Below are positions 11,562 through 57,227 of a stretch of 57,629 nucleotides of DNA, in pieces. This DNA is from Chitinophagaceae bacterium (GTDB lineage: Bacteria; Bacteroidota; Bacteroidia; Chitinophagales; Chitinophagaceae). Position 1 is the stretch's first letter. Each line of letters opens with the position of its first letter. A program made the translations under genes and the position numbers. Under the pieces are notes generated by a model, which saw only the letters and a program-made list of their open reading frames with translations, made no database searches and was not told the DNA's origin. The stretch covers positions 1 through 57,629 of the forward strand of contig JABFRU010000070.1 in assembly GCA_013140985.1 (NCBI GenBank), given 5' to 3'.

Positions 11562-11646
11562 GTGAAGTGAATTGTGAATCGTCAATGGTGAATGGGTTCA
11601 TGACAATCAAACTCTCCTATTGACTATTCACCATTCACTATTCACC
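11562..11646. repeat. Inverted heptamer arrays, word GAATnGT
   Basis: Five consecutive heptamers fill 11562-11596 (GTGAAGT, GAATTGT, GAATCGT, CAATGGT, GAATGGG). Four heptamers of the opposite sense fill 11619-11646 (ATTGACT, ATTCACC, ATTCACT, ATTCACC). Together they can form a long imperfect hairpin between two convergent genes (stops at 11535 and 11669), so a bidirectional terminator role is plausible. Confidence 0.85.
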
Positions 11647-12603: not shown

Positions 12604-14229
12604 ATGAACCTCGAATTCAATAAGAACGACGACGTAATGAAACAATCGCTGAGTGAGATGCGGCAGCGGCTGGATAAGATCGCTGAAGGCGGTGGTAAAA
12701 AAGCGATGGAGAAACAAAAAGAGAAGAATAAACTCACTCCGAGAGAAAGAATTGATTATTTAATTGATAAAGACAAACCCTTTATCGAGATCGGCGCTTT
12801 TGCCGGTTATGAAATGTATGAAGAACAAGGTGGTTGTCCCGCCGGTGGTACGGTGGCCGGTGTGGGATATGTAAGCGGCAGGCAGTGTGTGATACTGGCA
12901 AACGATCAAACGGTGAAAGCCGGTGCCTGGTTCCCTATTACCGGTAAAAAGAATTTGCGTTTGCAGGAGATAGCGATGGAAAATCATTTACCTGTTATTT
13001 ATTTGGTTGACAGCGCCGGCGTTTTTCTCCCGATGCAGGATGAGATATTTCCCGACAAAGAACATTTTGGCCGCATCTTCCGCAACAATGCGGTGATGAG
13101 TGGCATGGGCATCACACAGATCGCTGCGGTGATGGGCCCCTGTGTGGCCGGCGGCGCTTACTTACCGATCATGAGTGATGAAACACTGATGGTGGAAGGC
13201 AATGGTTCTATTTACCTGGCCGGTCCTTACCTGGTGAAAGCGGCGATAGGCGAAGACATAGATAATGAAACATTGGGCGGTGCGGTAACGCATACAGAGA
13301 TCAGCGGTATTGCCGATTATAAATTCAGGACCGAACAGGAATGCATGGATCATGTAAAAAAGATGATGGGCATGCTGGGTGATAAACCCAAAGCCGGTTT
13401 TGACAGGATCCAACCAAAAGCGCCAACAAAAAAAGCAGCAGAGCTGCATGGTATTTTTCCCGGTGATGGCAAACCGTATAATGTGATCGACATCATTGAA
13501 AGGATCGTTGACGATTCTGAATTTGAACAATTCAAAGAAGATTATGGTAAAACGATCGTCTGCGGTTATGGAAGAATAGATGGCTGGGCCGTAGGTATTG
13601 TTGCCAACCAGCGGCTGATCGTTAAAACAAAAAAGGGCGAGATGCAGCTGGGCGGTGTTATTTATAATGACAGCGCTGATAAAGGAGCAAGGTTCATTCT
13701 CAATTGCAACCAGAAGAAAATTCCATTGGTGTTCTTACAGGATGTTACCGGTTTTATGGTGGGCAGCCGCAGCGAACATTCGGGCATCATCAAAGACGGT
13801 GCGAAGATGGTGAATGCAGTAGCAAATTCTGTGGTGCCGAAGATCACTATCATTACCGGTAACAGTTATGGCGCCGGCAACTATGCCATGTGCGGCAAAG
13901 CCTATGATCCGAGATTCATTTATGCATGGCCTTCGGCGAGGATCGCTGTCATGAGTGGTGATTCGGCAGCCAAGACCTTATTACAAATAGAAGTGGCTTC
14001 GCAAAAAGCAAAAGGCAAAACGGTAAGCAAGGAAGAAGAAGATAAATTGCTGAACAAGATCAAGAGCCGTTATGATAAACAAACTTCTCCTTATTATGCA
14101 GCGGCCAGGTTGTGGGTAGATGCCATCATTGACCCGGTGGATACAAGAAAAGTAATTGCAGAAGGTATTGCAGCGGCGAATAATAACCCGGAGATTCATT
14201 CATTAAAGACGGGAGTGTTTCAGGTATGA
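12604..14229 (+). CDS. Acyl-CoA carboxylase beta (carboxyltransferase) subunit, methylcrotonyl-CoA type
   Basis: 541-residue cytoplasmic carboxyltransferase that moves CO2 from carboxybiotin to an acyl-CoA. The ATG at 12604 starts MNLEFNKNDD. An open frame extends 61 codons upstream into the palindrome region and promoter but does not look coding. Two crotonase-fold halves are visible. The N half has VDSAGVFLPMQDEIFPDKEH, HFGRIF and AAVMGPCVAGGAYLPIMSDE. The C half has FLQDVTGFMVGSRSE, GIIKDGAKMV and ITGNSYGAGNYAMCG. The QDEIFPDKEHFGRIF and YAMCG signatures fit methylcrotonyl-CoA or geranyl-CoA carboxylase beta chains better than propionyl-CoA ones. No biotin carboxylase or carrier gene lies in the window, so the alpha subunit must be encoded elsewhere. 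Confidence 0.92.
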   Translation: MNLEFNKNDDVMKQSLSEMRQRLDKIAEGGGKKAMEKQKEKNKLTPRERIDYLIDKDKPFIEIGAFAGYEMYEEQGGCPAGGTVAGVGYVSGRQCVILANDQTVKAGAWFPITGKKNLRLQEIAMENHLPVIYLVDSAGVFLPMQDEIFPDKEHFGRIFRNNAVMSGMGITQIAAVMGPCVAGGAYLPIMSDETLMVEGNGSIYLAGPYLVKAAIGEDIDNETLGGAVTHTEISGIADYKFRTEQECMDHVKKMMGMLGDKPKAGFDRIQPKAPTKKAAELHGIFPGDGKPYNVIDIIERIVDDSEFEQFKEDYGKTIVCGYGRIDGWAVGIVANQRLIVKTKKGEMQLGGVIYNDSADKGARFILNCNQKKIPLVFLQDVTGFMVGSRSEHSGIIKDGAKMVNAVANSVVPKITIITGNSYGAGNYAMCGKAYDPRFIYAWPSARIAVMSGDSAAKTLLQIEVASQKAKGKTVSKEEEDKLLNKIKSRYDKQTSPYYAAARLWVDAIIDPVDTRKVIAEGIAAANNNPEIHSLKTGVFQV

Positions 14230-16891: not shown

Positions 16892-17248
16892 ATGGCCCTG
16901 CATAATGAATTGGGAAAAGAAGGCGAACAAATGGCCATCCGGTGGCTGAAAGAAAAGGGTTATGAGATAATGCACCTCAACTGGCGGCACTCTTACTATG
17001 AAATAGATATTATAGCAAAAAAAGCTGACAAGCTTCATATTGTAGAAGTAAAAGCAAGGAAAGGAAATTTTTTTGGCAATCCTGAAGACAGTGTAACAAA
17101 AAGCAAATTCAAAAAATTGCAAAAGGCGGTGGATGAATTTCTTTTTTTGAATCCCGGCTACAAATGGCTGCAATACGATGTGCTGGCCATTACATTGCAT
17201 AACGATAAAGAAACAGAATATTTTTTACTGGAAGATGTTTTTCTCTGA
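16892..17248 (+). CDS. yraN: YraN/UPF0102 family endonuclease-like protein
   Basis: 118 residues, the usual length for this family. The opening NELGKEGEQMAIRWLKEKGY is followed by the PD-(D/E)XK-like core: SYYEIDIIAKKAD, with the acidic pair in EIDII, then LHIVEVKAR, giving Glu and Lys in EVK. The family is widespread next to rnhB or rsmI genes and is thought to be a Holliday-junction-resolvase-type nuclease fold, but its physiological role is not established. Divergent from manA. Its 3' side runs into a heptamer-repeat hairpin shared with the convergent YkgJ-like gene. Confidence 0.9.
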   Translation: MALHNELGKEGEQMAIRWLKEKGYEIMHLNWRHSYYEIDIIAKKADKLHIVEVKARKGNFFGNPEDSVTKSKFKKLQKAVDEFLFLNPGYKWLQYDVLAITLHNDKETEYFLLEDVFL

Positions 17249-17250
17249 GT

Positions 17251-17336
17251 TAGTAGGAAGTAGCGAGTAGCAAGTAGGGCTGGCGTGATATTATAAGCTT
17301 TCTTCCTACTAGCTACTCCCTACTAGCCACTTCCTT
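17251..17336. repeat. Inverted heptamer arrays, word nAGTAGn, overlapping a gene end
   Basis: Four plus-sense heptamers (TAGTAGG, AAGTAGC, GAGTAGC, AAGTAGG; 17251-17278) face five opposite-sense heptamers (CTTCCTA, CTAGCTA, CTCCCTA, CTAGCCA, CTTCCTT; 17302-17336). The right array includes the stop codon and last seven codons of the YkgJ-like gene. The arrays begin two bases after the yraN stop. The same word family occurs at 54400-54492. Confidence 0.9.
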
Positions 17337-26992: not shown

Positions 26993-27598
26993 GTGTCTTT
27001 TATCAGGAACATATCTCACACCTCACTAACCGATAAAGAACTGGTGGCTCTTTATAAGCAATCGGATGACATGGCCGTATTGGGAGAACTCTACCAGCGG
27101 TACATGGATATTGTCTATGGCGTATGTCTCAAATACTATAAAGAACCTGAAACAGCCAAGGACAGTGTGATGCAGATCTTCGAGGAACTGGTATCAAAAT
27201 TGAAAAGACATGATGTAGATAATTTCAGGGGTTGGCTGCACCAGGTAGCTAAAAATCACTGCCTGATGCAACTACGAACCCCCAAGAACCTTAAAACAGT
27301 GGAATTCAAAACGGAACTTGTGCAATCGGAGGAAAATGTGCATCTGAATGGCGTACTGGAAAAAGAAGAGAATTTCAAGAAGTTAGAGTACTGTTTGGGC
27401 ACCCTGACCAACGAACAACGGGAAGCAATAAAGCTCTTTTACCTTGAAGGGAAATGCTATAACGAGATAGCCGAAACAACCGGCCAGGACTGGAACCAGG
27501 TAAGAAGTTTTATACAGAATGGACGCCGGAATTTGAAAATATGTATGGAAAGACAAGAGTCAGGAGTTGGGAGTCGGGAGTCAGGGGTCAGGGATTAA
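26993..27598 (+). CDS. ECF-type RNA polymerase sigma factor
   Basis: 201-residue cytoplasmic transcription factor. The start is GTG at 26993, because the next ATG lies inside sigma region 2 (27071). Region 2 spans about 28-92 (FxxLYQRYMDIVYGVC-like start, with AKDSVMQIFEELV and NFRGWLHQVAKNHCL). Region 4 spans about 130-185 (LTNEQREAIKLFYLEG and a helix-turn-helix YNEIAETTGQDWNQVRSFI). No C-terminal extension is expected, yet residues 187-201 (QESGVGSRESGVRD) are encoded by a tandem GAGTCnG heptamer array and are probably an accidental tail. The anti-sigma-like gene begins 27 bases later, forming a sigma/anti-sigma pair. Confidence 0.93.
   Translation: MSFIRNISHTSLTDKELVALYKQSDDMAVLGELYQRYMDIVYGVCLKYYKEPETAKDSVMQIFEELVSKLKRHDVDNFRGWLHQVAKNHCLMQLRTPKNLKTVEFKTELVQSEENVHLNGVLEKEENFKKLEYCLGTLTNEQREAIKLFYLEGKCYNEIAETTGQDWNQVRSFIQNGRRNLKICMERQESGVGSRESGVRD
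27557..27593 (+). repeat. Heptamer array GAGTCnG inside the sigma factor 3' end
   Basis: Five tandem heptamers (GAGTCAG, GAGTTGG, GAGTCGG, GAGTCAG, GGGTCAG; 27557-27591) encode the last residues of the sigma factor. Opposite-sense heptamers CTGAACT, CCTGACT, CTTCCCT lie at 29075-29095 beyond the anti-sigma gene. A 13-base exact inverted match joins 27556-27568 and 29078-29090, so the two arrays bracket the gene between them. Confidence 0.9.
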
Positions 27599-32173: not shown

Positions 32174-34714
32174 CTAAAAACCTTTCTTTTTATTCAATGC
32201 AATGATATTGGCCAATAAACGATAAGCCCCCGGCACACCGGCAGGTAATTCCCGGAAAAATACAAGCCCGGTATAAGTGAACCAGCCCTTTCCATATTTA
32301 GCCACCAGCAAACTTCCATCATCTGATTTTTCACCCGGGTCACTCATGCCGATCAGCTTTTCAAATTTACCTGTTGTATCGCTGCCATGATAAATACTTC
32401 TTTCCTGTATCCATCCTGTAAAATCCTCATCCGTTATTTTATTGGGGAAATTAAATACAGGATGTTCGGGGTTTAGCATGGTCACTTTTGCATTCTCATC
32501 CGTTACTCTTGTACGGGTGATATTGAAATTATAAGGAGCAATTTTAGCTCTTACCGGCCCGATATTAGTGCTGGTATTGTACTGAACAATCAGGTTGCCG
32601 CCGTCATTCACATATTTCATGAGTTTGTCGTAATACTTATTCATCCATTCATTGGTATTATAAGCTCTTACGCCGGTAATGATGGCATCGAATTTATCGA
32701 GGTTATTTTTTGAAAGCTCTTTTTCTGTGAGCATGTTCACTTCATAACCCATTTGTTCCAATGCTTCGGGCACTTTATCACCTGCACCGGCGATATAGGC
32801 GATCCTTTTATTGTAGGTCTTCAATGATATCTGGATCAGGTTGGTCGTGGCTTCCTTAAAATAATTAATGAATGGTATATGTTCGTAGGAAATAGTTTTC
32901 CGGTAGCCCGCATATAAAGGCTTATCTCCTTTTTTCAGATCTACTGAAAAGGATTCCTGTAAACTTTCGCCGGGTTTTTTCGGCCTAATAATAGAAGAAA
33001 CATAATTAGAGGGATTGCTCCAGGTTCCATACTGGAAATTATCTTTATCAGCGAACCATTTATCTGAATGATTCACCCGGAAAGAATAAAGAATTGAATC
33101 CTTCAGGTTCCTTTTGAAGTGTACCTGCACTTTAACCGCACTATCATTAATAGAAAAATTATTGTCCTCGACAAAATCAAACTCAACTGCCGGGATAACA
33201 ACTAATGGTTCATATAATTCACCTTTGACCGGATCAGTGAATTTATATTTTACAGGTTTTACAAAACTAAGTTGCTGTCCCTCGATCTCCACGATAATGT
33301 TTGCCCAATAGGTTGGGTCCACATCGGGCTTCCCGATCAATTGCTGATCCTTCACATTAAAATAACCTTCTTCCATTTTATTCTCCAGCCAATAAGGTTG
33401 TGTAATAGCTGAACCGGGATGAACAAATATTGTTTTTGAAAAATTAAAATTTCTGTTCTTACTTAATACCTGGTTGAAGCTGCTGTCAAAAACATTGGCA
33501 GCTCTTACAGAAACTTTAGTAAGTTTTGCATTAACGCCAAGACGGTTATTAAAAGAAAAATTGACCCTTATTGAGTCGCCATGCACAGCGATCTGCTGCG
33601 CCGAAGTTGCATCCAGAAACAAACCGCTGCATTGCTCAATAAGTTTTTTGATCTCCTCCATTTTTTGTTGCTTCCACATTTCATCTGTATATCTGTCCGT
33701 CTTTGAAGTATATAGCTGCTCCCCTGAAAGACTTGTACTGATGATACTATAGAGCCTGACTAATCCTTTTACCGATCTCTCAGGATGAAGAAAGTCAAAA
33801 GAAGCGGCTAAACTATCTATCACTTTTTCTATCGCAGGTCCATCCGGCACTTTTTTCCACGTCATCTCCACTCCATCCATCAGGTCAGTAGCAGGTGCAT
33901 TACCTCCTGTTGTTCTAAAATACTCCAATGCCTCTCCTCTCGATGCCGGCACACCAAAGCCCTGGCTCTTATGCTGGCTGCGGCTGGCGGCAGATATCTC
34001 ACCATAACTTTTTCCCAATAAAGGATTATATCCACCAACATCTAATTTATACTGATCATTACTCTGTGTATTGGTGCCGCCAAAATTGAATGTGTTCCAT
34101 AAAATTCTTTTGGCCTGCCAAACACTTACATATTTTAATTGTTCGGGAAAGCGATTGGGATCGGCAGCAGCAGCGAATGCTTCATTGGCTAAAATACCGG
34201 ACGCCGTATGATGTCCATGACCGCCTTCACCGGTGGTTGGAAATCTTGTTATGATAACATCGGGCTGAAACTTTCTTATCACCCACACCACATCACTCAA
34301 TATTTTTTCTTTATCCCATTTGGTAAATGTTTCTTCCGGGTTTTTGGAATAACCAAAATCATACGCTCTTGTAAAAAATTGTTCGCCTCCATCCACTCTT
34401 CTTGCAGCCAATAGTTCCTGTGTTCGTATCAATCCTAATTCAATGCCTTGCTCATCACCTATCAGGTTTTGACCTCCATCACCTCTTGTTAATGATAAAT
34501 AACCGGTTCGGTATAACCTGTCTTTGGATAAATAAGAGATCAACCTTGTATTCTCATCATCAGGATGTGCCGCTATATATAAAACAGAACCCAGCACATT
34601 CAATTTGCGTATAGCCTGGTACATTTCAGCAGAGTTCCAGCCGGGAGGTGCCTGTGAAAAAGAACAGGGTGCAAGGAACAAGGCACAAGTGAGGATCAAA
34701 AAAAATCTTCGCAT
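32174..34714 (-). CDS. Exported PIG-L family deacetylase with ThuA/GATase-like C-terminal domain
   Basis: 846 residues with a signal peptide (MRRFFLILTCALFLAPCSFSQ). The PIG-L/LmbE fold is at about 35-250, with metal motif AHPDDE (His50, Asp53) and the downstream histidine cluster GHGHHTASG (His166-His169). Known members deacetylate N-acetylglucosaminyl conjugates (LmbE, MshB, PIG-L). The middle (about 380-620) is beta-rich. The last 200 residues look like a ThuA/class-I-GATase-like fold: RIAYIAGAGDKVPEALEQMG, FDAIITGVRAYN, and YVNDGGNLIVQYN. The domain pairing is common in large Bacteroidota PIG-L proteins. It is predicted to act in the periplasm on amino-sugar polymers or glycans; the substrate is unknown. 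Part of its signal peptide is encoded by a heptamer repeat. Confidence 0.88.
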   Translation of the reverse strand: MRRFFLILTCALFLAPCSFSQAPPGWNSAEMYQAIRKLNVLGSVLYIAAHPDDENTRLISYLSKDRLYRTGYLSLTRGDGGQNLIGDEQGIELGLIRTQELLAARRVDGGEQFFTRAYDFGYSKNPEETFTKWDKEKILSDVVWVIRKFQPDVIITRFPTTGEGGHGHHTASGILANEAFAAAADPNRFPEQLKYVSVWQAKRILWNTFNFGGTNTQSNDQYKLDVGGYNPLLGKSYGEISAASRSQHKSQGFGVPASRGEALEYFRTTGGNAPATDLMDGVEMTWKKVPDGPAIEKVIDSLAASFDFLHPERSVKGLVRLYSIISTSLSGEQLYTSKTDRYTDEMWKQQKMEEIKKLIEQCSGLFLDATSAQQIAVHGDSIRVNFSFNNRLGVNAKLTKVSVRAANVFDSSFNQVLSKNRNFNFSKTIFVHPGSAITQPYWLENKMEEGYFNVKDQQLIGKPDVDPTYWANIIVEIEGQQLSFVKPVKYKFTDPVKGELYEPLVVIPAVEFDFVEDNNFSINDSAVKVQVHFKRNLKDSILYSFRVNHSDKWFADKDNFQYGTWSNPSNYVSSIIRPKKPGESLQESFSVDLKKGDKPLYAGYRKTISYEHIPFINYFKEATTNLIQISLKTYNKRIAYIAGAGDKVPEALEQMGYEVNMLTEKELSKNNLDKFDAIITGVRAYNTNEWMNKYYDKLMKYVNDGGNLIVQYNTSTNIGPVRAKIAPYNFNITRTRVTDENAKVTMLNPEHPVFNFPNKITDEDFTGWIQERSIYHGSDTTGKFEKLIGMSDPGEKSDDGSLLVAKYGKGWFTYTGLVFFRELPAGVPGAYRLLANIIALNKKKGF
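34665..34692 (-). repeat. Heptamer array within the PIG-L signal-peptide codons
   Basis: Four tandem heptamers on the plus strand (CAGGGTG, CAAGGAA, CAAGGCA, CAAGTGA; 34665-34692) coincide with the codons of the hydrophobic core of the PIG-L signal peptide. Similar words occur in the degenerate array at 24862-24941. Confidence 0.65.
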
Positions 34715-40268: not shown

Positions 40269-41984
40269 ATGAAGAGAATTATTGCAACACTTCTTCTTAT
40301 CATTAGTTTTTACTTTGGTTTCAGCCAAAAAAGTAATAGCCCGGCTACCCCGATCAATACTTACAATTACAGCAGCCCAAAAAAAATCATAGCGACACAA
40401 GGGGCAGTTGTATCGGCACATCCATTGGCCAGCAAAGTGGGTATAGAAATTTTAAAGATGGGTGGCAATGCAATAGATGCAGCTATCGCTACACAATTAG
40501 CATTGGCGGTTGTATATCCACAGGCCGGTAATCTCGGTGGCGGTGGTTTTACTGTAGCAAGACTGGCAGATGGAAAAGAAATTACAATCGATTACCGTGA
40601 AATGGCACCCGGTAATGCTAACCGGGATATGTACCTGGATGAAAAAGGCGACCCCTTGCATGAGAAAAGCCAGGAAGGACATCTTTCCAGCGGAGTGCCG
40701 GGAACAGTGGCCGGTTTATTTGCATCCTATAAATATGCAAAACTTCCATTTTCAACATTGATCCAGCCTGCGATCGACATCGCTGAAAAAGGGTTTGTGA
40801 TCACCAAGAGACAAGCCCAATCGTTTAATGCGTTACAAGAAAATTTGAAAAAATACAATACTGTATCCCCGGTATTCATAAAAGAAAATTGGGCAGCCGG
40901 TGATACATTGATACAAACCGACCTGGCCAATACATTAAAACGAATTAGAGATAAAGGCGAGGCCGGGTTTTATGAAGGTGAAACAGCAAGGTTGATCGTA
41001 GAAGAAATGAAAAGAGGCAGCGGCATTATTACATTGGATGATCTGAAAAATTACAAAGCTATCAGCCGTGAACCGCACAGCTTTCATTATAAAGGCTACA
41101 AAATAATCAGCATGCCTATGCCCAGCAGCGGCGGATTATTGCTGAACCAGATGATGAAGATGATCGAGAACAGGGAGATCGGCAAGATGGGTTTTCTTTC
41201 TGTGCAGGCAATTCAACTGATGGTGGAAGTGGAACGGAGAGCATTTGCAGACAGGGCCAAATACATGGGCGATGCCGATTTTTATAATGTGCCGGTTGAC
41301 AAATTATGCAGCCCTGCCTATTTACAGGAAAGAATGATGAACTATGATCCGGCAAAAGCAACGCCCAGTTCAACTATTCAGCCGGGAACCGTAGCAGGTT
41401 ATGAAAGTGAAGAAACCACTCATTTAAGTGTGATAGATAAAGACGGTAATGCAGTCGCAGTGACCACCACATTAAATGATTCGTACGGCAGTAAAACAGT
41501 GGTGGGTGGCGCCGGTTTCTTTTTAAATGATGAGATGGATGATTTCAGTATCAAGCCCGGTGTACCTAATATGTATGGTGCTGTAGGCGGTGAAGCCAAT
41601 GCCATCAAACCGGGAAAAAGAATGTTGAGTTCAATGACGCCGACCATTGTACTGAAAGACAATTATCCCTATTTGGTGATAGGGACACCCGGAGGAACTA
41701 CGATACCTACATCGGTATTTCAAACAATTGTTGATATTATAGAATTTGGAATGACGACAGAAGATGCGGTCTGGAAGGCAAAATTCCATCACCAATGGCT
41801 GCCGGATCATATAGAGATCGAAAGAGCCATCCCCGAAAAAACAAGAGAGGCATTAAGAATAATGGGCTACACCGTAGTGGACAGGGGACCTATCGGAAGA
41901 ACAGAGTTGATAAAAGTTATATCCCGTAAAAAAATTGAAGCAGTGGCCGATGTGCGGGGTGATGATGCAGCGGAAGGCTATTAG
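40269..41984 (+). CDS. ggt: Gamma-glutamyltransferase (exported)
   Basis: 571-residue proenzyme with a signal peptide (MKRIIATLLLIISFYFGFSQ). It self-cleaves to a large and a small subunit. The nucleophile is the first Thr of TTHLSVIDKDGNAV (Thr383), with cleavage after Glu382. Other family motifs are ASKVGIEILKMGGNAIDAA, YPQAGNLGGGGF, IDYREMAPG (substrate-carboxylate Arg), TTLNDSYG, LNDEMDDFS, and the ending TPTIVLKDNYPYLVIGTPGGTTI (oxyanion loop). It transfers or hydrolyses gamma-glutamyl groups such as that of glutathione in the periplasm. Length matches the family and no key residue is missing. It is divergent from the M14 gene. A GCS2 ligase is encoded 13 kb downstream, but no direct link is shown. 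Confidence 0.95.
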   Translation: MKRIIATLLLIISFYFGFSQKSNSPATPINTYNYSSPKKIIATQGAVVSAHPLASKVGIEILKMGGNAIDAAIATQLALAVVYPQAGNLGGGGFTVARLADGKEITIDYREMAPGNANRDMYLDEKGDPLHEKSQEGHLSSGVPGTVAGLFASYKYAKLPFSTLIQPAIDIAEKGFVITKRQAQSFNALQENLKKYNTVSPVFIKENWAAGDTLIQTDLANTLKRIRDKGEAGFYEGETARLIVEEMKRGSGIITLDDLKNYKAISREPHSFHYKGYKIISMPMPSSGGLLLNQMMKMIENREIGKMGFLSVQAIQLMVEVERRAFADRAKYMGDADFYNVPVDKLCSPAYLQERMMNYDPAKATPSSTIQPGTVAGYESEETTHLSVIDKDGNAVAVTTTLNDSYGSKTVVGGAGFFLNDEMDDFSIKPGVPNMYGAVGGEANAIKPGKRMLSSMTPTIVLKDNYPYLVIGTPGGTTIPTSVFQTIVDIIEFGMTTEDAVWKAKFHHQWLPDHIEIERAIPEKTREALRIMGYTVVDRGPIGRTELIKVISRKKIEAVADVRGDDAAEGY

Positions 41985-41990
41985 ATAAAA

Positions 41991-42076
41991 ACTAAAAGAG
42001 AATAACTAATAGTGCTTTCAGATCGAATAGTTCTCTTTCTGCTGTAAAGAACTATTATCTGTTAGTTATTAGTTTT
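41991..42076. repeat. Inverted heptamer arrays, ACTAATA type
   Basis: ACTAAAA, GAGAATA, ACTAATA (41991-42011) face GAACTAT, TATCTGT, TAGTTAT, TAGTTTT (42049-42076). An inner AATAGTTCT/AGAACTATT-type pairing (about 42026-42056) closes the fold. It starts seven bases after the ggt stop and ends 13 bases before the next ATG. Confidence 0.8.
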
Positions 42077-42089
42077 TAACTACAATTAT

Positions 42090-42638: not shown

Positions 42639-42642
42639 GATT

Positions 42643-42742
42643 GTTTCAGGTTTCATGTCTCAAGTTTTATGTTTCGTGAATATCATAAAGACTTTCCTGC
42701 CTTGACCGACTCGCTTAAAACCAGAAACATGAAACCTGAAAC
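42643..42742. repeat. Inverted heptamer arrays, GTTTCAn type, with a 17-bp perfect stem
   Basis: GTTTCAG, GTTTCAT, GTCTCAA, GTTTTAT, GTTTCGT (42643-42677) face TTAAAAC, CAGAAAC, ATGAAAC, CTGAAAC (42715-42742). The arms 42641-42657 and 42728-42744 are perfect inverted repeats of 17 bases across a 70-base loop. It starts four bases after the DUF1572 stop. Confidence 0.95.
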
Positions 42743-42798
42743 AACCATGTCTTGCATTCACCATTATTAAATATTACTTTTATCGCTTATACCTTTTA

Positions 42799-54383: not shown

Positions 54384-54399
54384 GGCGCCAAAGTTAAGG

Positions 54400-54492
54400 G
54401 AATAGCGAGTAGGGAGTAGCTAGTGGCTAGTAGGATGCTCAAAAAAAAGGGAATTTTCCTACCTACTCGCTATTCCCTACTTACTACTAGCT
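54400..54492. repeat. Inverted heptamer arrays, nAGTAGn type (second copy)
   Basis: GAATAGC, GAGTAGG, GAGTAGC, TAGTGGC, TAGTAGG (54400-54434) face CCTACCT, ACTCGCT, ATTCCCT, ACTTACT, ACTAGCT (54458-54492). The arms 54398-54413 and 54462-54477 are perfect inverted repeats of 16 bases. The word is the same as at 17251-17336. It lies in the divergent spacer between the esterase and the ATP-grasp genes. Confidence 0.95.
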
Positions 54493-54575
54493 AATTTGTT
54501 TATTTGCCGCCGAAAAAATACATTTGATAAAGACCCTTTGGATGGGTGTCAAATTAATCAACAAAAAATAAGTTT

Positions 54576-55529: not shown

Positions 55530-55532
55530 GCA

Positions 55533-55567
55533 ATTATTAATTAATAATTATTAATTAATAATTAAAA
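55533..55567. repeat. Heptamer array ATTAATA/ATTATTA between the two ligase genes
   Basis: Five tandem heptamers (ATTATTA, ATTAATA, ATTATTA, ATTAATA, ATTAAAA) fill 55533-55567, starting four bases after the ATP-grasp stop and ending eight bases before the GCS2 ATG. It is palindromic as well as tandem, consisting almost only of A and T. Confidence 0.9.
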
Positions 55568-56700: not shown

Positions 56701-57207
56701 ATGAGCTTTTTTAAGAAACTATTTGGTGGTAATGGCAAGAAACAGGATGATAATAAGCCTGACATTAATGCCCTACTATCTTCCCCTGACACAAACAACG
56801 CACTTATCGAGATTTACGATTATATAAGCAAGCTTGGTGATACATTAGATCCTTTAACAGAACCCCAGAAGAATTTTTATTATAACCAGGAACTTGAACG
56901 GGAAATCAATAACGGCGGGTTTAGTCAATTCTTTTATAATTCAAGCGGGGACTTTGCACATGAAACATTGACATCATTACGGGCTATTGGAGCAACCAAA
57001 ACAGCTAACATTCTGCAACAGGCCATTGACCAGTTTCCAGATTCAATAGTTCCAAAAGAAAGGCTCCACCGTCAAAATATATTAGAACAGATTCATGATA
57101 AAGCAGGGGAAATATGGGATCAACTTGATGAAAAATTCTATAAATATGAAGACAATTTATATGACCTCAATTGGGGGTATATAAAACAAAATCGTAGTTC
57201 ATTTTAA
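56701..57207 (+). CDS. DUF4375 (DMP19-like) protein
   Basis: 168 residues. A basic, glycine-rich start (MSFFKKLFGGNGKKQDDNK) is followed by a helical domain with ELEREINNGGFSQFFYNSSGD, which is the DUF4375/DMP19 hallmark, then TLTSLRAIGATKTANILQQ. The family is common in bacteria as a stand-alone or polymorphic-toxin immunity-type domain; the role here is unknown. It lies 15 bases past the GCS2 stop and may be read through. It ends with a heptamer array. Confidence 0.85.
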   Translation: MSFFKKLFGGNGKKQDDNKPDINALLSSPDTNNALIEIYDYISKLGDTLDPLTEPQKNFYYNQELEREINNGGFSQFFYNSSGDFAHETLTSLRAIGATKTANILQQAIDQFPDSIVPKERLHRQNILEQIHDKAGEIWDQLDEKFYKYEDNLYDLNWGYIKQNRSSF

Positions 57208-57227
57208 TTGATGATTAATGATTAATC
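57207..57227. repeat. Short heptamer array ATTAATn
   Basis: ATTGATG, ATTAATG, ATTAATC (57207-57227) begin at the last base of the DUF4375 stop codon. Only three units, so this is the weakest array. It supports the pattern that arrays abut gene ends. Confidence 0.55.

Follow-up and report, generated by a model that had tools for sequence, protein, structure and literature searches.

Heptamer arrays in a Chitinophagaceae genome as probable ends and gene-less leftovers of elements that carry an IVP gene

Several groups of short bacterial repeats resemble the arrays discussed here. REPINs are paired inverted short repeats, and in REPIN/RAYT systems, as in MITEs, gene-less copies are found beside full ones. 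Among the heptamers proper, the STRR sequences of filamentous cyanobacteria usually consist of 7-bp repeats that can form hairpins, and the part of the source available to us gives their function as not known (PMC2670836). TAACTGA direct repeats are present in Beggiatoaceae, Cyanobacteria, and five Bacteroidetes, and a post-transcriptional role has been suggested for them (PMC4679880, available in part). The IVS of Coxiella burnetii, finally, is described as a selfish element of 428 nt; its ends form a 28-bp stem, and it carries an S23p ORF, just upstream of which stand two or three GACAGAT heptamers, their number depending on the strain; the accessible part of the same source describes an IVP homolog as a pentameric toroid (PMC4990558). 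Apart from the heptamers in this one IVS, our literature word searches (a weak test of absence) found no work joining STRR sequences or heptamer arrays with IVP.

The DNA studied here, hereafter the window, is a stretch of 57,629 nucleotides that makes up one contig (C65) of a genome of 3,858,101 bases in 83 contigs; the relatives retrieved with one of its proteins are Chitinophagaceae. A preliminary description had listed period-7 arrays at about eleven loci and had known of no counterpart in Bacteroidota. The latter statement has to be dropped in view of the TAACTGA repeats of five Bacteroidetes (PMC4679880, in the part available), beyond which our word searches found no further Bacteroidota heptamer paper. 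Scored as the best lag-7 identity across 21 positions, nine of the eleven named loci do hold a period-7 array, with 19 at 55533, 18 at 11562 and 27557, 17 at 54400, 16 at 17251, and 15 at 34665, 41991, 42643, and 57207. The other two do not: 40175, listed as exact, has period 8 instead (16 at lag 8, 11 at lag 7), and 24862, listed as a diverged array, is none (lag-7 identity 11).

The period is not confined to these loci. Of the 90-nt pieces of the window, 2.0% attain at least 15 at lag 7; for lags 5, 6, 8, and 9 the share is 0 to 0.5%. Over 456,490 bases (the window and 20 stretches of the same genome), with a locus defined as at least 16/21, we counted 63 loci at lag 7 against 0, 6, 13, and 6 at lags 5, 6, 8, and 9, whereas one Markov shuffle gave no lag-7 locus at all; this is the test proposed in the preliminary description, applied here to part of the genome. 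The multiples of the period, lags 14 and 21, gave 41 and 12 loci in the same bases. By a crude ORF call, 35 of 55 merged arrays are intergenic, with intergenic DNA making up 9.7% of the bases, and 20 lie inside called ORFs, a count that speaks against reading the arrays as selfish elements. Being multicopy, tandem, 7 nt in period, and mainly intergenic, the arrays have the makings of STRR sequences, with which they also share the potential to form hairpins. In three cases heptamer arrays were seen inside conserved coding sequence (L016:4746, L016:5371, and L010:17723, in PyrD and HisS). We considered these as insertions into the proteins and rejected the idea, as the alignments lack a clear insertion and the arrays replace variable loops.

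The hairpin at 54397-54494 may serve as the reference. Its left arm (54397..54434, forward strand) is a heptamer array of the word family (G)AGTAG/AGCNAGT and its right arm (54458..54494, reverse strand) is the inverted partner, the whole lying between divergent genes. The 16-base perfect arms ascribed to it earlier are confirmed and slightly extended, 54397-54413 and 54462-54478 being perfectly complementary over 17 bases, and the RNA fold reaches -42.2 kcal/mol (z -5.2). Against the arms of a resident IVP cassette (L159), that is, an IVP gene of family PF05635 between inverted arrays, the left array scores 17.0, and the best of 50 foreign cassettes scores 13.0. The hairpin is best read as a gene-less derivative of such a cassette. 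Directly after it, at 54499-54526, stands TTTG ... TAnnTTTG, kept in relatives as judged by eye, which we take to be a Bacteroidota-type promoter.

Other arrays of the window are built along the same lines. A gene-less GTSAATN hairpin has four units in each arm (11567..11593, forward; 11619..11645, reverse) around a 25-nt loop and matches the resident cassette L161 at 22.0. The word AGTAGNN forms a pair at 17248..17278 (forward) and 17305..17334 (reverse), folding into 6-bp blocks interrupted every 7 nt, with a resident match of 16.5 and a foreign one of 16.0. The weak array at 41984..42012 (forward, 15/21), whose partner at 42052..42078 (reverse) was found by eye, starts where the upstream ORF stops; the RTTTCAN array at 42641..42675 (forward), paired with 42724..42744 (reverse; fold z -6.9), starts just past the upstream ORF's stop (42638). 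A single GGGAGTC array at 27557..27592 (forward) has no visible partner and matches none of the resident IVP cassettes (own 9.5, foreign 12.0), and a short ATTAATG array (57207..57226, forward) lies at the end of an ORF. The self-palindromic AATTATTAATTAAT array at 55532..55563, to which no strand is assigned, is flanked by two co-directional ORFs and matches the resident cassette L170 at 17.5 (foreign 11.0). Exact or near-exact copies of its 32-33 bases stand at non-orthologous sites, both on contig C34 of this genome and in several other genomes of the genus. A search for PF05635 gave no match on the window contig, which thus carries gene-less hairpins only.

Such hairpins might simply be kept for their RNA structure, as terminators or mRNA stabilizers, a reading to which the strong folds of five hairpins of the window (z -3.6 to -6.9) and the many arrays whose start is no more than 30 nt away from a stop codon would lend themselves. 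We nevertheless hold it to be highly improbable: the 54397-54494 hairpin stands between divergent genes, only 2 of 32 classed array spacers are convergent (26 are tandem and 4 divergent), none of the Rfam families matches in the window, and the words of terminators need not follow an IVP clade.

The words themselves turned out to be shared widely. Each locus had been thought to use its own, but the genome contains 79 matches to GTGAATRGTGAATRGTGAAT (GTGAATR) at up to two mismatches, against 0 for the same pattern read backwards as a control. About ten word families recur, by eye, among 53 merged loci, and this genome-wide sharing rules out a view of one word per locus. For GTSAATN in three copies (GTSAATN x3) we found 94 exact matches in this genome; 28 of the 198 Bacteroidia genomes sampled have it, and it reaches 1,307 matches in Terrimonas ferruginea (G247), where the 180 kb searched held no close IVP. 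GTSAATN hairpins lean toward one architecture: in five of the nine found the loop measures 24-25 nt, and the arms often consist of four units. Unit statistics revealed no clear rule for the N and S positions: neighboring N are alike in 9/39 cases in the own genome (expected 0.28) and in 35/54 in T. ferruginea (expected 0.39). Several T. ferruginea loci (L150-L158) are mosaics of several word families, often with AAACAGCC linkers between them.

A gene belonging to these arrays came to light through a relative (L038) with an extra ORF between its arrays, by eye a 23S rRNA IVP (S23, four-helix-bundle) protein, and PF05635 was therefore searched. The genome has 16 matches, 15 of them above the cut-off and two with stops. 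When inverted arrays were scored in 300-nt flanks, with 70 other ORFs of 90-165 aa from the sampled stretches as controls, all 16 PF05635 matches reached at least 25 against 5/70 controls, and 15/16 reached at least 28 against 1/70. The same anatomy extends to other Bacteroidia. A non-random set of 86 IVP loci (16 own, then 30 and 40 from the top of the match list) came to 83 once three with short flanks had been dropped; 71/83 score at least 25 in inverted orientation, against 11/83 in direct orientation and a baseline of 7.7% for cross-locus flank pairs, in a set that includes two close-relative pairs with near-identical flanks (L226/L234 and L220/L241). The arm period is 7 in 54/65 and 8 in 10/65, and in 61/65 the 5-prime arm, read from the outside in, has more G than C. 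PF05635 is present in 157/198 sampled Bacteroidia genomes against 0/14 control genomes. Inverted arrays were also seen around genes of another family, GxxExxY (PF13366, PDDEXK_3), at L279 (G198:C113), L301, and L302, with words of 8 or 9 nt (CGCAAAGA; CACAGAGNN). This applies to three of five tested loci plus a weak sixth; L303 and L304 are without them.

The cassettes are close to the Coxiella IVS, which likewise has terminal inverted repeats and a hairpin whose loop holds a single PF05635-type ORF (PMC4990558, available in part). They have both an S23/IVP gene and terminal inverted repeats able to form a stem around it, and the hairpins of the window lack the gene. In what is available of the sources, 23S rRNA IVS are single copies inside rRNA helices, whereas the present elements lie in spacers, have many words, and number up to 16 cassettes in one genome, besides many hairpins without a gene. 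The window has no match in Rfam, and the cyanobacterial plasmid copies discussed below do not have rRNA genes as neighbors; on these grounds the elements lack an rRNA location and are therefore IVS-like rather than IVS in the strict sense. RNase III excision is shown for the Coxiella IVS (PMC4990558, same part).

Taken together, the arrays are probably the ends, or the gene-less leftovers, of IVS-type selfish IVP elements dispersed between genes. A full element of about 0.5 kb consists of a heptamer (sometimes octamer) array, the IVP/S23 gene, and the same array inverted. As RNA or single strand it would form a long hairpin whose loop contains the gene. The elements would settle chiefly in intergenic spacers, often right at a stop codon. 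Gene loss would then leave hairpins bounded by the arms, and the paired arrays of the window would be such copies, on which resident IVPs may act in trans, while slippage adds or drops 7-nt units. The IVP most likely recognizes the word found in the arrays of its own element, and word and protein would therefore change together. From the observed cassettes, word-protein coupling, co-occurrence, and site series we infer that the elements are mobile, that the arms, as DNA or RNA hairpins, are bound by the IVP ring, and that cutting and joining would fall to host enzymes or an unseen partner.

The first line of evidence for this derivation is the match between gene-less arrays and resident cassettes. 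In our sample, 61 solo arrays (those outside its two IVP loci) were compared with the 16 resident cassettes, and 34/61 match a resident arm at a score of at least 14, as opposed to 7.7 on average, and 16 at most, for 16 random foreign cassettes. The contrast shrinks at lower cut-offs (47 vs 28.5 at 11) and the excess is gone at 9 (58 vs 48.1, maximum 59); at cut-off 14, 27/61 solo arrays have no resident IVP match.

The second is co-occurrence across 42 genomes of the genus, nine of which encode an IVP with 56% or more identity to the L161 IVP, and nine of which have at least five GTSAATN x3 matches. This number of matches is reached in 8/9 genomes with an L161-like IVP against 1/33 others (p 6.7e-7), and match cut-offs of 1, 2, and 10 give p 5e-5, 1e-5, and 1e-5 in the same genomes; the 56% line was set after the data had been seen, and 50% would add two match-less genomes (G238 and G220). 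The exceptions are G198 (93% complete), with 30 matches and no close IVP, and G233, with GTGAGYC arms and a single match. Among ten cassettes read from the L161 clade, the arms are GTSAATN in seven, mixed in L254, and GTGAGNC-like in L255 and L256. AATSAGT arms are present in two cassettes at 50-52% identity, and this second word, used as a prediction, is present in 4/42 genomes, both predicted ones included; the others are G231, where an IVP fragment adjoins an array on C282, and G208. The reversed AATSAGT pattern also matches all four genomes because the arrays partly read alike backwards.

Third, the array word goes with the IVP protein lineage across taxonomic families. For 64 loci (flank score at least 28, protein of at least 95 aa), with a word counted as shared at a score of at least 12, different-family pairs have the word in common in 33/39 cases at a relative protein score above 0.6, in 14/89 at 0.5-0.6, and in about 40/1,708 (~2%) below 0.5, and a Mantel test of word against protein gave 0/500; these pairs are non-independent, and the statistics ignore the tree. 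Among same-genome pairs the coupling is not significant (rho 0.14, p 0.13, 127 pairs). When 13 cyanobacterial loci are added and only the nearest IVP of another family is considered, the word is common in 19/19 cases above 0.6, in 9/35 at 0.5-0.6, and in 0/23 below 0.5, overall in 28/77 against 3.0 expected. Across phyla the coupling is weaker yet present (rho 0.175; 4/1000 permutations).

Local amplification, put forward in the preliminary description on the grounds that words differ between loci and not within, accounts for part of this picture. Units are indeed gained and lost: the orthologous copies of one hairpin are exactly one 7-nt unit apart in length in two genomes that are ~93% identical there. 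Amplification alone is insufficient as an origin because the words are genome-wide, match resident cassette arms, and follow IVP clades. We give hardly any credence to plain microsatellites, which would arise by slippage anywhere and be retained in spacers as coding DNA purges 7-nt repeats: the one-heptamer change fits them, but inverted pairs around PF05635 genes, words shared through the genome, and the coupling of word and protein would all be left unexplained.

Orthologous sites show turnover of the arrays. Among 72 of the 80 loci from relatives, with an array defined as at least 15/21, the spacer after the ATP-grasp gene has a lag-7 array in 18/72 (0, 0, 5, and 0 of 72 at lags 5, 6, 8, and 9). 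The words of these arrays are diverse and mostly unlike those of the window; before the gene the count is 2/72. Array-free orthologous spacers in close relatives had been named as grounds for refutation, a test that needs rewording. Arrays at some of the loci, mostly with other words, are what element turnover predicts. Even L037 and L038, ~90% identical where aligned, have different words in this spacer, L038 being the one with the extra ORF between its arrays. Sister genomes differ also in a dispersed repeat of another kind, which contains CGACGCAA and GTAGTAATG, at alignment positions 13810 and 51035 of G244:C1.

Full cassettes, too, are present or absent at one and the same site. At the cassette site of G223 (L253), G209 aligns through and has a cassette of its own, the spacers of G200 (131 nt) and G210 (83 nt) are free of arrays, in G226 a stretch of 107 nt is enclosed by GTSAATN arms, and G230 has a decayed left arm. 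In G198, whose flanks are ~90% identical, a 608-nt insert holds a PDDEXK_3 (PF13366) ORF with an internal stop between octamer arrays. The insertion at this site, the only one examined for the purpose, replaced spacer sequence, and by eye no target-site duplication was seen. The interior in G226 retains the C-terminus of an IVP: in the right strand it reads FKLLSGLVGSSSKD-stop where the G223 IVP ends in FKLLSGLIISTSKN-stop, and pairwise protein alignment gave 0/500 shuffles against two references and 70/500 against a third; by DNA alignment the remnant is not above shuffles, and a clade HMM gave 2.3 bits, under shuffles reaching 6.7. A second remnant, in G230, is weak (2/500 against one reference, 53/500 and 178/500 against two others). 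Internally deleted relatives with common ends, as expected of MITEs, are thus seen at one site with one remnant, with the DNA and HMM tests negative.

These sites also bear on the idea that the IVP is a nucleic-acid-binding regulator, for which the arrays would be operators or sites in 5-prime UTRs, those at its own gene serving autoregulation. The coupling of word and protein and the match with resident cassettes fit such a regulon equally well, many arrays are found near the start or the stop of a gene, and the role suggested for TAACTGA repeats (PMC4679880, available in part) points in the same direction. We consider it unlikely all the same: orthologous spacers of close relatives have different words or none, full cassettes come and go at one site, and an IVP C-terminus between the arms fits the decay of a cassette, not an operator.

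As to what could move the elements, the L161 IVP is modeled as a confident four-helix bundle (pLDDT 94.1), whose nearest solved structures by Foldseek are 2gsc and 2rld, followed by Avd 4dwl (E 0.05, TM 0.77). Avd of diversity-generating retroelements (PDB 4dwl, 8ub7) therefore has the fold of IVP (TM about 0.77) at a sequence identity of about 10%. The genome has no match to the reverse transcriptase family PF00078, a companion expected of such a retroelement; reverse transcription in trans was likewise set aside for the present genome, past activity being possible. Least probable of all are REP/REPIN elements moved by Y1 (RAYT-type) transposases. The genome does have 5 Y1_Tnp matches, and REPINs likewise are paired inverted short repeats, with short inverted-repeat units and gene-less copies alongside full ones as in MITEs. 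The present cassette, in contrast to both, is without a transposase and has variable-word arrays for arms, and beside the four of five Y1 loci read (by eye) there are no lag-7 arrays; RAYT mobilization was rejected as the same repeat does not stand beside the Y1 gene at these loci. The flanks of two Y1 genes (L245 and L246) have, by eye, another palindrome around GTCCCTACGGGAC.

Similar repeats stand beside the same gene family outside Bacteroidota as well. The parallel with STRR sequences drawn earlier pointed the right way, although the host phylum is not cyanobacteria: when plasmids were searched by tblastn with one IVP, 23 records came up, the majority cyanobacterial, and like heptamer arrays adjoin the IVP genes there. 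Of 14 loci analyzed, none next to rRNA genes, 13 have an inverted flank score of at least 28 and 7 exceed the cross-locus 95% level (a level inflated by shared words), while direct beats inverted orientation in two (Nostoc HK-01 and Pseudanabaena). The plasmid words GGGAGTA, GGGAACA, and GTGACAG are of STRR type. STRR sequences were described without a gene, whereas the present family has gene-bearing cassettes. TAACTGA repeats are intergenic heptamers as well, patchy over the same phyla, and differ in having one word, nearly always direct and mostly at start codons; the part of PMC4679880 available mentions no link to IVP.

If we go one step further, tentatively and with somewhat more doubt than belief, IVP/S23 could be a large unrecognized class of mobile elements with word-programmed heptamer ends, each lineage with its own word, which would mobilize gene-less hairpins in trans without a known transposase or reverse transcriptase in cis, and of which the rRNA IVS and the cyanobacterial STRR sequences would be two faces. 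Already the main reading joins things hitherto studied separately, namely intergenic heptamers (STRR, TAACTGA, and the present arrays), the S23/IVP family, and the rRNA IVS. It gives PF05635 a testable role, with a predicted DNA or RNA word for each IVP, and, should it be right, the orphan repeats of many genomes could be read as traces of named elements. The surroundings of the plasmid copies offer one more detail: in two plasmids the IVP gene lies between cas6 and cas4 (L291 and L296, of Pseudanabaena and Anabaena), and in a third (L300) between cas10 and a cmr3-like gene.
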